IMG/VR virus record: IMGVR_UViG_3300042564_003385
Span: 1-25,790 of that record
Source: a virus
DNA: 25,790 nucleotides
Strand: one strand, 5' to 3'
Part shown: positions 10,235-16,496 of the stretch, piece after piece
Layout: each line of letters begins with the position of its first letter
Position numbering within the stretch: the stretch's first letter is position 1
The notes under the pieces: generated by a model
The model's input: only the letters and a program-made list of their open reading frames with translations
Databases searched by the model: none
What the model was told of the DNA's origin: nothing
Position numbers and translations under genes: made by a program

Positions 10235-10870
10235 ATGTGGTTTGTTTATATTTTGTATGATACTAGAAACGGTAACCCATTTTATGTGGGCAAGGGCAAT
10301 AAAAGACGATTGAAAGCGACATTGAATGTAAATGCCGGGGCTAATGCCTTGAAAAAGAAATTTTTGAAAGAAATAAGATCAGTTGGACTTGAACCTGAAT
10401 TAAAAATAGTAGGAGAGCATCCTACTGAAACTGATGCGTTGAATCAAGAAAAACAATTAATTGAACAATATGGAAGAATTATAAAAGGCAATGGATTATT
10501 AACAAACTACGCTGACGGGGGAGAAAAGGGTAGCACGGGACATATATTTTCTGAAGATACAAAAAAACTTTGGTCTTCTCAACGAACCGGAGTTAAACAA
10601 ACTAAAGAACATATTGAGAGTAGAGCAGATCAACTTAGAGGAAAAATTAGGTCAACCGAATCCAAAAGAAAATATGTTTTGGCTAGTATTCGTAGAACTA
10701 ATCCAAAACTAAAAGTTGAGATTATAAGAGAACTAGAACAAAAAGAATATACCCGAGGAATGTATACAGAATTATCTAAAAAATTGAATTGCCATCATGA
10801 ACTGATAAGTAGAATACACAATGAAATTGAACTATACAAGGAAGCATTAAATGAGTGGATCAAAAAGTAA
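10235..10870 (+). CDS. GIY-YIG homing endonuclease (Seg-like)
   Basis: A 211-aa free-standing endonuclease. The N-terminal GIY-YIG domain (1-85) has VYI at 4-6, YVGKG from 17, basic residues KRR at 23-25, and the catalytic-type EKQLIEQYG with Glu72. Residues about 100-150 contain two NUMOD3-like DNA-binding repeats (SEDTKKLWSSQRTG and related). The C-terminus (about 160-205) looks like a helix-turn-helix (YTELSKKLNCHHELISRI). Such genes spread by cutting phage DNA lacking them. It lies between gp46 and a nuclease gene whose first 20 bases it overlaps, and it is preceded by the hairpin and late box described above. The catalytic residues look intact. Confidence 0.88.
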   Translation: MWFVYILYDTRNGNPFYVGKGNKRRLKATLNVNAGANALKKKFLKEIRSVGLEPELKIVGEHPTETDALNQEKQLIEQYGRIIKGNGLLTNYADGGEKGSTGHIFSEDTKKLWSSQRTGVKQTKEHIESRADQLRGKIRSTESKRKYVLASIRRTNPKLKVEIIRELEQKEYTRGMYTELSKKLNCHHELISRIHNEIELYKEALNEWIKK

Positions 10871-11408: not shown

Positions 11409-11410
11409 TA

Positions 11411-11915
11411 ACAATTTGCTGGCTCAGTTTGTGAGTCCTCCTTGAGTTTGTACAGATTGTGCTGTGCTGACGGATTCTGGAGTATGTATGAACAGCAATG
11501 TTCATAGAAAACCGAGAAGGCTCTCGTCAAAGCGAACCTTCAATGAGTCTATATTCAATTCTATCTTGCGGATATAGAACATGCGTTGTCGAAGGACCAA
11601 TTGAAAGACATTGGCAGCTTCACTACAGTCCCAAAAACATTACAGGACAACCGGTTGCGTATAATGTCAGAAATAGGTGATTATACGGGGAATAGATGGC
11701 AAAGGTCGACGGTCGTGGCAAACACACTTTTATCCAACGGTAGTGCAAATTTGCACTACCATGGCTCTCAAATCGGCAATATATACTTTGATCCAATCAA
11801 AGTATAAACAATGAAGTACCGTAAAAACAAAGAACGAACGCAGTGAGTTCTTAGATGAACGCTAGTTCATCTGTTATTGAAAGAACCCAAAATTGATAAA
11901 TGAATAATTCCGTCA
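11411..11915. ncRNA. Candidate large structured RNA in a gene-free 510-base interval
   Basis: No convincing gene lies between the nuclease stop (11408) and the minus-strand gene ending at 11920, but the interval is packed with helices: ACAATTTG 11411 with CAGATTGT 11453 (around GGCTCA/TGAGTCC); TATGAAC 11487 with GTTCATA 11500; GAAGG 11516 with CCTTC 11537; TCTATATTC 11548 with GGATATAGA 11570; GTTGTC 11585 with GACAAC 11646, enclosing GAAG/CTTC and CCAAT/ATTGG; CGTATAAT 11658 with ATTATACG 11680; a perfect 22-base palindrome 11739-11760; TATACTTTGAT 11782 with ATCAAAGTATA 11796; AAGAAC 11830 with GTTCTT 11847, abutting AGATGAAC 11853 with GTTCATCT 11865. TGACGGA 11468 can pair with TCCGTCA 11909 to close the domain. 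The strand is undetermined and no poly-U terminator is seen. No tRNA, tmRNA, RNase P or group I core was recognised. Confidence 0.55.
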
Positions 11916-11919
11916 ATAA

Positions 11920-12096
11920 TTAAAAGAATGGCAATTGAGTTTTCTTGGTTGTTTCTAAGTTTTCTTCTACTATCTGATTTAATGCCGTGCGTTCATCTGG
12001 ACTCATATTTAATACGTCCTCATATGATACCCCACCTCGAAGATACCAAGAAAACTTTAACGCATTTTTCTTAATATCTTTGCACTCTTGTTCCAT
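11920..12096 (-). CDS. Small gp51-position baseplate assembly protein; likely -1 frameshift extension of gp26
   Basis: A 58-aa reading frame from an ATG at 12096: it begins MEQECKDIKKNALKFSWYLR, continues GGVSYEDVLNMSPDER and ends TTKKTQLPFF. Its WYLRGGVSYEDVL and ETTKK..PFF blocks match a small conserved protein I associate with the position right after gp26 in T4-like cyanophages and their relatives, where T4 has gp51 (baseplate hub assembly). The ATG has no good Shine-Dalgarno. The frame stays open upstream for 20 codons, to the gp26 slippery site, with protein-like sequence (LSLSPEGVQKLLDG), so it may be made mainly as a gp26 fusion. Similarity to T4 gp51 itself was not established. Confidence 0.75.
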   Translation of the reverse strand: MEQECKDIKKNALKFSWYLRGGVSYEDVLNMSPDERTALNQIVEENLETTKKTQLPFF

Positions 12097-12107
12097 ACCG
12101 TCTAGTA

Positions 12108-12156
12108 GCTTCTGTACCCCTTCTGGGGAAAGAGATAGAAGCCTTAACCGAAAAAA
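12108..12156 (-). promoter_or_regulatory. Probable programmed -1 ribosomal frameshift signal
   Basis: On the minus strand the last gp26 sense codons read GA-T TTT TTC GGT TAA. T TTT TTC (12156-12150) is a canonical X XXY YYZ slippery heptamer in the correct phase. Seven bases later a stem begins: GCTTCT (12142-12137) pairs with AGAAGC (12113-12108), enclosing a second helix CCCC (12128-12125)/GGGG (12120-12117) with loop AGAA. A -1 slip bypasses the TAA and enters the downstream open frame. The elements are seen; the frameshifting is inferred. Confidence 0.75.
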
Positions 12157-12968
12157 TCAGTTACATTCAATGCTAGTGGTTGTTCATATTCATTGGCACA
12201 GTGAATACATTTTATTTTCTGAGGTTTAGTTGTGGAATTTTCTCGTAGAGAGCCTATGTGTTTTCTAATATTCTCAAATGTATTTTTATCACAATTTTCT
12301 AAAAATTCCACAATGTATTCTTTATTATCCACTTGTTCACCTGTAGGTATAACAATATATTCAATACTATTAGCCATCATTTCACCGTTAATTTTAGAAA
12401 TTCTAAGCATTATGGTACTAGATTTTTCTTTACGTTCTTCATCATCGGTCATGTTCTCTAAAACTGCAATCTCTCGTTGCATCTCAAATTGAGACAAATT
12501 ACCAGTGTTGATATTTTTGTAATTCAATGGTCTAAATTTAATCTTTAAATCACCTAAGTTTAATGTACTTGCGTAATCACCTGAACTCATGCCCGATAGC
12601 AATCCAATTAAATTTACTCCGTACGTAGCTTCTTCTTCACATGCGGGACATTTAGATGATATTTCTAAATCATTTCCATTCGTTGCAGCACGAATAGCAA
12701 TCAATACAGCATCAATATCCATACTAGGCATAGCCCATGGATCTTTGATTGCCGGCACGCAACTTTTAATAATGTCACTTATCGCAACTCCATTAAATAA
12801 TGCGTCTGGAGTTTTACTAGTAATCTCATCAATTGCTGTCATTGGAAATACCGGCAATTCACCGTTGTCTGGCATTTCAATTGATCCGTCAGGATAAAAA
12901 GTACCTTTACTAGGTAAAGTAACATATAGCGCAGGTCTACGGAAATATTGTCTTAGTGGGTTGTTCAT
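12144..12968 (-). CDS. 26: Baseplate hub subunit gp26 (T4_baseplate family)
   Basis: A 274-aa protein beginning NPLRQYFRRPALYVTLPSKG, followed by ELPVFPMTAIDEITSKTPDALFNG and IIKSCVPAIKDPWAMPSMD, which I recognise as the gp26-type baseplate protein of T4-like phages. It has two CxxC pairs, CPAC around residue 127 and CIHC near the C-terminus, which could bind zinc. The centre (about 160-240) is charged and helical. It is longer than T4 gp26 (208 aa). It is transcribed divergently from the tape measure gene, from a TATAAATA box at 13018-13025, with a GGAG ribosome site. The final codons contain the slippery heptamer leading into the small downstream frame, an arrangement like the tail assembly chaperone pairs of other phages. 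Confidence 0.8.
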   Translation of the reverse strand: MNNPLRQYFRRPALYVTLPSKGTFYPDGSIEMPDNGELPVFPMTAIDEITSKTPDALFNGVAISDIIKSCVPAIKDPWAMPSMDIDAVLIAIRAATNGNDLEISSKCPACEEEATYGVNLIGLLSGMSSGDYASTLNLGDLKIKFRPLNYKNINTGNLSQFEMQREIAVLENMTDDEERKEKSSTIMLRISKINGEMMANSIEYIVIPTGEQVDNKEYIVEFLENCDKNTFENIRKHIGSLRENSTTKPQKIKCIHCANEYEQPLALNVTDFFG

Positions 12969-13000
12969 TGTATGTTCTCCAAAATATGTATTTTATAAAC

Positions 13001-13017: not shown

Positions 13018-13025
13018 TATTTATA
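13018..13025 (-). promoter_or_regulatory. Late promoter box TATAAATA for gp26
   Basis: The minus strand reads TATAAATA, identical to the T4 late-promoter consensus, 49 bases upstream of the gp26 ATG. A transcript starting about six bases on would have a leader of some 45 bases that includes the GGAG ribosome site. Confidence 0.7.
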
Positions 13026-13049: not shown

Positions 13050-16000
13050 ATGGCAGATATAGATCCTAATCTCGCAGAAGCCTCAGCTAAATTAACTGAA
13101 CTATTTAACCAGCTAGGTACTTCTATACGTACCGGTATGGATGCATCAGAATCGTCCGTTAGAGTTGCTGAAAGAACACAATCATCATTGGAAACAGAAC
13201 TTAAAAAGTTTGGTCTTAAAATAAATGAACTTACTAAGGATTTAGAAGAAGATGATGATGAACTGAAAAAGAGAATTGCGTTACAAAAAGAAGTAAATCA
13301 AACTATTGAAAAAGGTCTTAAGGCAGAAGCTGATGCTAAAGGAGTATCAGTTGAAACACTAAAGTTACAAAAGGAACAAAACACTGCTACTGAAAAACAA
13401 TTACGTAACTTACAAGAACAACGTGATTCTATACTGGGTTTAACAAGAGAGCAAAATGCTTCTATTGAAGCATATCAAAAAGAAAATAGACAAAGAGAAA
13501 TTCAAGCTGACAGTACTAAGCACCAAGGTGCTAAAATTACTGCTGCGTATCAACAAATGTCATCGGCTAGTGGGATATTATCAACAGCCCAAACCGCCGC
13601 AACTGCTCAATTTGGTGCTACTGCTGCAGGAGCTATAGGCGTAAATCTTGCCTTTACTGCATTAAACATTGGTTTAGATGCAGGGATTCTGGCATTTAAT
13701 CAATGGAAAGAGGGATTAGACAACGCCTTTCAAGCACAAATGGCGTACAATACGCAATTGGTATTAGGTGCAGATGGTTATAAATTAGCAAATAGCCAAC
13801 AGTTAGCCAAAATGAAATTGGATGCAAAACAGACAAGAGAACAGTCTGACATGTATCAAAAAATAGGGTTTGGTTTAGGTGCTACTGCAATTGGTCTTGT
13901 TGCATTGCGATCTACTTCCATAGGCGCAGCAGTAGGCCTGAGCGCATTGAGTTTGCCAGTCACGTTGGTAGTTGCTGGGTTGACATCATTAGCAGCACTA
14001 TTTGGTTTGAGTTTAGCTAAAGAAAAATATCTACAGGCTCAAGCAGAAGAAAAGGCAGCAGTAGACTTAGAAAATGCTACTACGCTTAAAGATAAACTAT
14101 ACGACACGTATATGGATATTGGTAAAGCCGGTCTAGTTGGTTCTCAGGGTCTTACTGCACTAACTGAAAATGCACACAAAGCAGGCTTTGCAATAAAAGA
14201 TATTGATAAGTTTACATCGGCACTTAAAAATAATCAAAAAGAAATGAGTATGTTTGCCGGTGGTGCAGCCGCAGGGGTAGATAAATTTGCATCAGTTACT
14301 GGCGAAATGACTGATTCTTTAGGTGGCCACTTTCGTAATTTAGGAATTTCAGTTGAAGAACAAGCAGAAAAAACAGCACAGTACATGGCTTTGCAAGCAC
14401 GATTAGGGTTAATTCAAGGAAAAACAATAACTGAGTTAGCAACTGGTGCAGGGAAGTACTTAGAAGAATTAGACAAATCTGCAACATTACTAGGCACAAG
14501 TCGTAAAGAACAAGAAGATGCTAGAAAAGCAGTAATGGCAATAGAGCAATTACGTGCTGCTCAGATGGTCGCTGAAGAAAAAGGTGACAAAGCAGAATCA
14601 GAAAGATTAGGTCGTTATGCAAAGATAGCTGAAAACTTAATAGCAAAAGGATTAACACAAGAAGGTGCCGGATTTGCTAAAATAGCTGCATCAAAGGGTG
14701 CAGTCACGGATAAAGATACTGTGATAGCACGGCAAATGTATAGTAACGATGTGTTTAATAAGATTGATAAGAATCTAGGATCAGCAACTGATCAAATGCG
14801 TCAAGTAGTAAAAGAATCTAAATCAGCTTACCTTAGAACTGCTGCAGGTTATGCTGCAACCGGTGCAGATGCAGGAATGACTGGAGGGAAATACGGTGCA
14901 ATGGCTGACCTGGATATTGCAGTAGGAAATCAAGAAGCGGCAGTGCGAGAAGCAGCAGCTAAAAAGGGATTAAAAGAAGGTACGCCAGAATATAATAAAT
15001 TCTTTGAAGATTTCTTAGTTGAGCAGAAAAAGGCAACTGATAAAGCAACCACTGATGCTAATAAGTTAAGAGAACAGCAACAAAAAGCTGCTATTGCTGA
15101 TGATAATCGTTTGATTGCATTTGGTAATACCTTCCAAGGTGCTACTACTACATTTTCAAATGCTGTTGACAAATTTGCAGGTGGAGGTGTTGGTGGTGAG
15201 CAAGGTGAAACAACCCCGGATGTAGCTGCTATTGAAGCCAGTGGTGGTTTGGCTGGACAACTAGAGGCTGATGAAAAATTAAAAAAATTACCAGAGTATG
15301 AAAGAACACTGGCAGAAATTGAAAAGTATCAAAGATTATTCAACGAGGGTGATGCTTTAAATGAAAAACAGTTAGCAGGTTTTAAAGCAAGAAGCGAAAT
15401 TGCGGCTCTAGCAGTTGCTGACTATAACAAAAAGTTTGCAGCACCGGCAGCAGCACCGGCAGCAGCACCAGCAGTACCAGCAGCAGCAGTACCAGCAGCA
15501 GCAGCACCGGCAGCAGCACCAGCAGTACCAGCAGCAGCAGTACCAGCAGCAGCAGTACCAGCAGCAGCAGCACCGGCAGCAGCACCAATGCAACGCATGA
15601 ACCTGAGTGTTCCTAATGCCGCGGGACCGGCAGCAGCACCGGCAGCAGCACCGGCACCGGCAGCATCAATGCAACGCATGAACCTGAGTGTTCCTAATGC
15701 CGCGGGACCGGCAGCAGCACCTCCTACATCAACAGCGTCAACTGCCGCAGGAACTATGGGTGCTTACAAATCAAGGGCAGCAGCACCTGACACTGCAAGT
15801 ATGGGATCAACCGAACCTATCAGTGATATAAGTAATTTATTAGTATTTGCAGGTAAAAGTGGCACACTAGAAACCTTTAAGGCACTGGATTCTGGGTTAC
15901 AAAAAGCGGTTATAAGTGCCGCAGCAGAATATAATAAATCTACAGGAAAAAAAATACAAGTAAACAGTGCTAAACGTGATTCGGCTGATCAACAACGTTT

Positions 16001-16496
16001 ATGGGACGAGTCGGTGAAAGCCGAACGTCCTGGTTGGGGGCCGAAAGGAATGCAAATTGCAAGACCAGGAACTAGTAAACATGAGAGAGGCGCTGCAATA
16101 GACATACAACAGTATAACGATCCTGTTGCGGTAGGATTGATGAACAAGTATGGAATGAAACAAACAGTGATGCCCAAAGACCCAGTTCACTTTGAATTAA
16201 AAGCTAAAAAAGGTGGAATGTTTAAAGGTCCTGAATCAGGATATCCTGTTGAAATGCACGGTAATGAAATTATAACACCATTGAGTCCTAATAGTATTTT
16301 AGAACAATTGGGTAAAACCCCTGCTACAACTGAAATAGCAGGATCATCGTCATCATCTACTACTAACACAATCAAAGAAATTTATTCAATGAATGCAGAA
16401 ATTATGGAAATGCTTGCAGGTAAATTGGATGATATGATTGATAGATTAGATAGGGGAAATACTTACTCTGACAAATTAGTAAAAGCTATGGCTTAA
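13050..16496 (+). CDS. Tape measure protein with C-terminal M15 zinc peptidase domain
   Basis: An 1148-aa protein. The N-terminal 150 residues are charged coiled coil. Two hydrophobic regions (about 181-218 and 272-325) are typical of tape measures, whose hydrophobic parts are thought to enter the host membrane. A helical middle leads to an Ala/Pro-rich linker (about 797-905). Residues about 950-1050 form a VanY/M15-type peptidase: SAKRDSADQQRLWD, SKHERGAAID with His1011 and Asp1018, and DPVH with Asp1044 and His1047, matching the zinc and catalytic residues of phage L-Ala-D-Glu endopeptidases such as the T5 endolysin. The SGYPVEMHGNEIITPL motif after it is common at tape measure C-termini. 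It occupies the functional place of T4 gp29 and probably opens peptidoglycan during DNA entry. The tape measure call rests on architecture, not on gp29 similarity. Confidence 0.82.
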   Translation: MADIDPNLAEASAKLTELFNQLGTSIRTGMDASESSVRVAERTQSSLETELKKFGLKINELTKDLEEDDDELKKRIALQKEVNQTIEKGLKAEADAKGVSVETLKLQKEQNTATEKQLRNLQEQRDSILGLTREQNASIEAYQKENRQREIQADSTKHQGAKITAAYQQMSSASGILSTAQTAATAQFGATAAGAIGVNLAFTALNIGLDAGILAFNQWKEGLDNAFQAQMAYNTQLVLGADGYKLANSQQLAKMKLDAKQTREQSDMYQKIGFGLGATAIGLVALRSTSIGAAVGLSALSLPVTLVVAGLTSLAALFGLSLAKEKYLQAQAEEKAAVDLENATTLKDKLYDTYMDIGKAGLVGSQGLTALTENAHKAGFAIKDIDKFTSALKNNQKEMSMFAGGAAAGVDKFASVTGEMTDSLGGHFRNLGISVEEQAEKTAQYMALQARLGLIQGKTITELATGAGKYLEELDKSATLLGTSRKEQEDARKAVMAIEQLRAAQMVAEEKGDKAESERLGRYAKIAENLIAKGLTQEGAGFAKIAASKGAVTDKDTVIARQMYSNDVFNKIDKNLGSATDQMRQVVKESKSAYLRTAAGYAATGADAGMTGGKYGAMADLDIAVGNQEAAVREAAAKKGLKEGTPEYNKFFEDFLVEQKKATDKATTDANKLREQQQKAAIADDNRLIAFGNTFQGATTTFSNAVDKFAGGGVGGEQGETTPDVAAIEASGGLAGQLEADEKLKKLPEYERTLAEIEKYQRLFNEGDALNEKQLAGFKARSEIAALAVADYNKKFAAPAAAPAAAPAVPAAAVPAAAAPAAAPAVPAAAVPAAAVPAAAAPAAAPMQRMNLSVPNAAGPAAAPAAAPAPAASMQRMNLSVPNAAGPAAAPPTSTASTAAGTMGAYKSRAAAPDTASMGSTEPISDISNLLVFAGKSGTLETFKALDSGLQKAVISAAAEYNKSTGKKIQVNSAKRDSADQQRLWDESVKAERPGWGPKGMQIARPGTSKHERGAAIDIQQYNDPVAVGLMNKYGMKQTVMPKDPVHFELKAKKGGMFKGPESGYPVEMHGNEIITPLSPNSILEQLGKTPATTEIAGSSSSSTTNTIKEIYSMNAEIMEMLAGKLDDMIDRLDRGNTYSDKLVKAMA
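15437..15721 (+). repeat. Ala/Pro-coding low-complexity tract and exact 55-bp direct repeat in the tape measure gene
   Basis: From 15437 to about 15585 the gene is built from GCAGCAGCACCG/A and CCAGCAGTA units encoding PAAAPA and PAAAVPA. A 55-base segment at 15586-15640 recurs exactly at 15667-15721, with an 81-base period; each copy encodes MQRMNLSVPNAAGPAAAP. Identity at every base implies a recent duplication or continuing recombination. The reading frame is preserved throughout. Confidence 0.9.

Follow-up and report, generated by a model that had tools for sequence, protein, structure and literature searches.

The tail chaperone pairs G/GT of phage lambda and E/E′ of phage P2 are said, in work attributed to Xu, Hendrix and Duda in 2004, to be made by frameshifting. 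Among T4-like phages, gp26 and gp51 were identified as tail assembly chaperones by Vladimirov et al. 2022 (Virology 566:9), as reported in passages of two later papers, the first of which (PMC10885494) cites that work for T4-like phages with separate short and long genes, while the second (PMC12846349) credits it with slippery poly-T stretches in the TAC-N genes of T4-like phages. The latter paper also deals with the TAC of phage Adele (Vandenendeviridae/Andersonviridae), where a −1 PRF is predicted at a conserved poly-T motif and the −1 frame is open in every genome. A review on T4 (PMC3004832) places gp26 and gp51 among the hub assembly chaperones. In the annotation of phage Stupor, gp26 and gp51 are both tape measure assembly chaperones. 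The genes meant by the papers that cite the 2022 work are presumably 26 and 51, to which the Stupor annotation and the T4 review also point.

Here we analyse the 3′ end of a gp26 gene in a stretch of DNA of 25,790 nucleotides from an uncultivated giant phage related to T4 (IMG/VR record IMGVR_UViG_3300042564_003385, positions 1 to 25,790), referred to below as the window. This 3′ end is, in all probability, a programmed −1 frameshift cassette that makes a short and a long tail chaperone. As in T4, where PF12322 is common to gp26 and gp51, a short form would be accompanied by a long one that carries a further domain at its C-terminus. However, T4 uses two separate divergent genes and has no slippery site, whereas the window has one gene and a putative −1 slippage. 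In the Kyanoviridae, gp26 and its small ‘gp51’ (P-SSM5, S-SM1) have TTTTTTC in the same place, with a −1 continuation that mostly starts with FFR and a C-terminal domain, phrog_634, marginally similar to the one found here and in jumbo phages. The motif of the Adele TAC is GTTTTT, compared with TTTTTTC in the window. Lambda G/GT and P2 E/E′ share no known sequence homology with the gp26 locus and, unlike in those systems, gp26 here points away from the presumed tape measure gene. The features of the locus are the following:

12144–12968, minus strand: gp26 homologue (PF12322, phrog_150), short product of 274 aa (Pfam T4_baseplate, E=2.9e-20; phrog_150, E=6e-21)
12150–12156, minus strand: slippery heptamer T TTT TTC in −1 PRF phase, invariant in 83/83 loci and 58/58 clusters
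12144–12146, minus strand: 0-frame stop TAA, one sense codon past the heptamer
12977–12980, minus strand: GGAG ribosome-binding site of gp26
13018–13025, minus strand: TATAAATA, resembling a T4 late promoter, upstream of gp26; its frequency in the window is not above chance
11920–12156, minus strand: open −1 frame, 78 codons from the heptamer plus stop, with third-position-biased substitutions ahead of the ATG; predicted C-terminal extension of a 349-aa fusion
12094–12096, minus strand: internal ATG of the 58-codon frame, with no Shine-Dalgarno motif and not conserved in relatives
12107–12143, minus strand: candidate stimulatory hairpin (outer stem 12143–12137/12113–12107, inner stem 12134–12128/12123–12117)
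13050–16496, plus strand: divergent neighbour of 1148 aa, by position a probable tape measure protein (putative client), with a C-terminal VanY-like domain (VanY, E=3.6e-6)

The gp26 gene ends, on the minus strand, in GTA ACT GAT TTT TTC GGT TAA, and T TTT TTC (12156–12150) stands in X XXY YYZ phase within the overlap of the 0 and −1 frames. The original prediction had put a heptamer in −1 phase at this point, as the sequence bears out, and the gp26 stop three codons further on; in fact a single sense codon (GGT) precedes TAA. After a tandem slippage of one base the ribosome would sit on TTT TTT, with CGG as the next codon. Slippery heptamers in frame (X XXY YYZ, with Y being A or T) occur in the genes of the window at 0.0059 per codon, which predicts about 0.03 within the final five codons of any one gene, and no window gene other than gp26 combines a stop-adjacent slippery heptamer with a long −1 continuation. 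At the other end of the gene, the ATG is preceded by GGAG at 8 nt, and the motif at 13018–13025 could, by count alone, have arisen by chance.

No stop codon interrupts the −1 frame between 12156 and 11923 (78 codons), and the product of this frame is FFRLRLLSLSPEGVQKLLDGMEQECKDIKKNALKFSWYLRGGVSYEDVLNMSPDERTALNQIVEENLETTKKTQLPFF. As had been proposed, the frame passes through 18 codons that separate TTT TTT from the ATG at 12096 and continues into a 58-codon frame, whose ATG, in contrast to the gp26 start with its GGAG, is indeed without a Shine-Dalgarno motif. The predicted fusion has 349 aa (273 + 76), beside the 274-aa gp26.

The comparison with relatives covered IMG/VR contigs together with the phages Phosso, Atu_ph07, PA5oct, RaK2, Munch, 121Q and SNUABM_47, which gave 109 loci, 83 of them distinct in the 3′ region and falling into 58 clusters at 70% gp26 identity. 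The named relatives are jumbo phages with gp26 identities of 27–37%, and a nucleotide search for close phage relatives found nothing. In phase, TTTTTTC is present in all 83 distinct loci, and the −1 frame is open in every complete one; the heptamer, its spacing and the open −1 frame that the original prediction expected to be kept in relatives are kept, and relatives devoid of the slippery heptamer but with the downstream gene under a strong ribosome site of its own, which it had named as counter-evidence, number 0 of 83 in this group. The two phenylalanine codons are TTT and TTC in 58 of 58 clusters each. The preceding codon varies (GAT 45, AAT 7, CAT 3, AGT 2 and CGT 1 among the 58 clusters), with T as its third base in every case, in clusters and loci alike, and among 33 conserved two-fold codons the one that comes next in constraint is at 87%. 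It is thus exactly the seven slipping bases whose synonymous sites are frozen in these alignments. Clusters and loci share ancestry, and 58/58 and 83/83 are not probabilities from independent trials, but the remaining codons of these genes had equally long to change.

Constraint on the coding level follows the −1 frame as well. The 0-frame residues after FF are variable (G, A, E, D, V, AVRS, RES, DLSFSS or GFSFSLPNQKK), whereas the −1 product starts with a conserved and unbroken FFRxRLLxLxPE. Between the heptamer and the ATG, substitutions counted over 130 related pairs fall on −1 codon positions 1, 2 and 3 in the proportion 340/255/548. A conserved start codon in the −1 frame was found nowhere across the 83 loci: its first 30 codons hold no ATG, GTG or TTG in 25 loci, and a start with a four-base Shine-Dalgarno match in only 4. 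These observations bear directly on a rival explanation, in which the 58-codon frame forms a small gene of its own, read from 12096 and perhaps coupled to the termination of gp26, and the heptamer is incidental. There is an ATG at 12096, some relatives have the frame annotated as a separate hypothetical gene, and coupling does occur elsewhere in the family, in Ackermannviridae-type relatives with no heptamer and with TAATG overlaps. However, a start that is devoid of a Shine-Dalgarno motif and not conserved fits poorly with a −1 frame conserved from the heptamer onward, upstream of any start, and with a synonymously frozen heptamer, and we regard a separate gene as highly improbable.

Downstream of the heptamer, the RNA may fold into a hairpin with a 7-bp outer stem that encloses a second 7-bp stem (−15.2 kcal/mol, z −2.05); the same hairpin folds in a 70-nt context, where z is about 0, i.e., of ordinary stability. 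The spacer up to the first (G-U) pair is of 6 nt (12149–12144), so the stem that had been proposed 7 bases past the heptamer is there, with that distance valid only when counted to GCTTCT. At 6 nt, and covarying, the structure lies within the 5–9 nt considered for −1 PRF. Covariation was examined in the 68 loci that align with no gaps and have the stem at fixed spacing. Across the 14 stem pairs, 77.7% of the cells are standard pairs, versus 36–57% when the partner is slid by 1–3 columns. Cells changed on both sides amount to 56, as compared with 29.6 after shuffling, and stem covariation to 0.242 versus 0.199, neither value being reached in any of 500 shuffles, a control that ignores the relatedness of the loci. 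Replacements in the outer stem include GC to AU at pair 15-49 (in 5) and CG to UA at pair 19-45 (in 4). Conservation of the stem could come in part from coding constraint (RLL, QKL). RNAalifold returned an empty consensus structure for all 68 loci, probably owing to register shifts of the inner stem, and an Rfam search matched no known RNA element. In Atu_ph07, GGCTCTTTGT and ACAAAGAGCC, spotted by eye, could pair as a longer-range stem.

The hairpin and the heptamer's last base also weigh on a second rival, which we likewise regard as highly improbable: an invariant run of six T residues might make the RNA polymerase slip, with the same short and long outcome. Transcriptional slippage generally requires longer runs than T6. 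Moreover, every heptamer of the jumbo group ends in C, outside that group the last base differs from phage to phage as a Z position should, and the stem covaries at ribosomal spacing. That the two frames read as one protein once joined could also suggest faulty sequencing or a gene that has decayed and come apart, a reading that is hardly credible and is refuted by the recurrence of this split across 83 distinct loci, finished phage genomes included.

On the comparative evidence, the frameshift cassette is almost certainly real, and from it we infer the slippage itself, its efficiency, the protein products and the chaperone function. Most ribosomes would terminate at the TAA of GAT TTT TTC GGT TAA, giving the short form of 274 aa. 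A minority, delayed by the hairpin 6 nt downstream, would slip by −1 on T TTT TTC and enter the −1 frame, which adds an all-helical C-terminal extension of 76 residues and so gives a long form of 349 aa. Both forms would then coat or recruit the tape measure protein during polymerisation of the tail tube, the client probably being the divergent 1148-aa neighbour.

The N-terminal part shared by both forms is homologous to the T4 gp26/gp51 family (PF12322, E=2.9e-20), and this family identity makes it very probable that gp26 and its long form work as a chaperone pair. The original prediction of a chaperone-like pair agrees with what the passages of PMC10885494 and PMC12846349 say of T4-like gp26/gp51; its remark that it knew of no such pair established for the T4-type gp26/gp51 position is qualified by the earlier identification (Vladimirov et al. 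2022) credited there. AlphaFold2 models of gp26 and of the extension, folded separately, are confident (pLDDT of 91.5 and 85.7, respectively). A PDB fold search with these separate models gave no match for either one and no GT-like fold similarity, a result that concerns a fold shared with other TAC branches and not membership in PF12322. The gp26 protein also has two CxxC pairs (C107/C110 and C254/C257), nearly invariant in the jumbo group, which possibly constitute one split zinc site; one locus (L019) has neither pair.

The gene at 13050–16496 occupies the position where RaK2 and SNUABM_47 have genes with a tape-measure-like annotation. The chaperone gene adjoins it, but divergently, and does not precede it in an operon. 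Long Ala/Pro-rich repeats stand ahead of its VanY-type D-Ala-D-Ala carboxypeptidase domain, and the tape measure may, judging from this domain, carry a peptidoglycan hydrolase. On the other side of gp26, about 500 bp between converging genes (11409–11919) hold no convincing gene, no match to Rfam, a perfect 11-bp palindrome (GGTAGTGCAAA/TTTGCACTACC, 11739–11760) and an inverted repeat (11782–11806); 121Q and Munch have several hundred unannotated bases at the equivalent point. Near the gp26 region, the plus strand encodes a GIY-YIG domain protein (10235–10870) and, overlapping it, a PDDEXK endonuclease (PF24608, 10851–11408).

Beyond the jumbo phages, TTTTTTC lies 0–6 nt from the gp26 stop in the cyanophages P-SSM5, RN05-S, S-SM1, P-HM1 and S-CRM01, and also in OLIVR5/LG08, phiAS5 and S13, with the variants TTTTTTT in VmeM-32 and TTTTTTG in RL2RES. 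The groups with a TTTTTTC/T/G heptamer include cyanophages, Pootjesviridae and some Straboviridae, and all the heptamer-bearing non-jumbo gp26 genes listed continue in the −1 frame. The Ackermannviridae-type Vibrio phages VP-1 and D508 and Pseudomonas phage Cygsa01 have no heptamer and show TAATG overlaps instead, a third route of expression for the extension, perhaps as a separate protein. In these three phages the extension is kept in the −1 frame.

In T4, Stupor and AS-gz the heptamer is absent, gene 25 follows gp26, and gp51 lies divergently upstream. The ‘gp51 position’ assigned by the original prediction to the −1 frame is apt for cyanophages, where a small ‘gp51’ comes after gp26, and not for T4, where gene 51 lies upstream of gene 26 as a divergent paralogue of full length. 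Both T4 proteins match PF12322, 26 being short and 51 long, and the C-terminal part of T4 gp51 is homologous to the −1 product of cyanophages (hhalign 90.8%, E 1e-6; phrog_634). Being composed of PF12322 and this cyanophage-like part, T4 gp51 looks like a long form made permanent by genomic fusion. The similarity of the jumbo extension to the cyanophage one is weak or marginal (hhalign 43%), and a direct hhalign comparison with T4 gp51 was not significant (1.4%).

A tree of the family groups the expression states, and because its deep branches are weak, a frameshift ancestry is something we can only infer. On balance we lean slightly towards a scenario where frameshifting on T TTT TTN was the ancestral route to short and long chaperones in the whole T4 superfamily. 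The jumbo lineage of RaK2, 121Q, PA5oct and Atu_ph07 would have retained it without change, as would cyanophages, Pootjesviridae and some Straboviridae. In T4-type Straboviridae, duplication and in-frame fusion (26, 51) would have taken its place, and in Ackermannviridae-like phages a start-stop overlap. The jumbo phages would, besides, have a covarying hairpin stimulator of their own and an extension diverged almost beyond recognition.

Judging from the two citing papers, both the chaperone identity of gp26/gp51 and the slippage of this family on poly-T have apparently been published before. What this comparison of sequences shows is the conserved site of the jumbo group, a well-conserved putative stimulator, and the observation that none of the eight jumbo-phage records inspected has gp26 and the −1 frame annotated as joined, several annotated relatives having the downstream frame as a separate hypothetical gene. 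The cassette accounts for the small downstream frame that annotators call hypothetical or overlook, and gene finders ought to merge the two frames. Jumbo T4-like phages (RaK2, 121Q, PA5oct, Munch, Atu_ph07 and many uncultivated ones) gain a testable tail chaperone pair, and the finding supports the notion that gp26 and gp51, T4 hub chaperones of long obscure function, correspond to such a frameshift pair divided between two genes.
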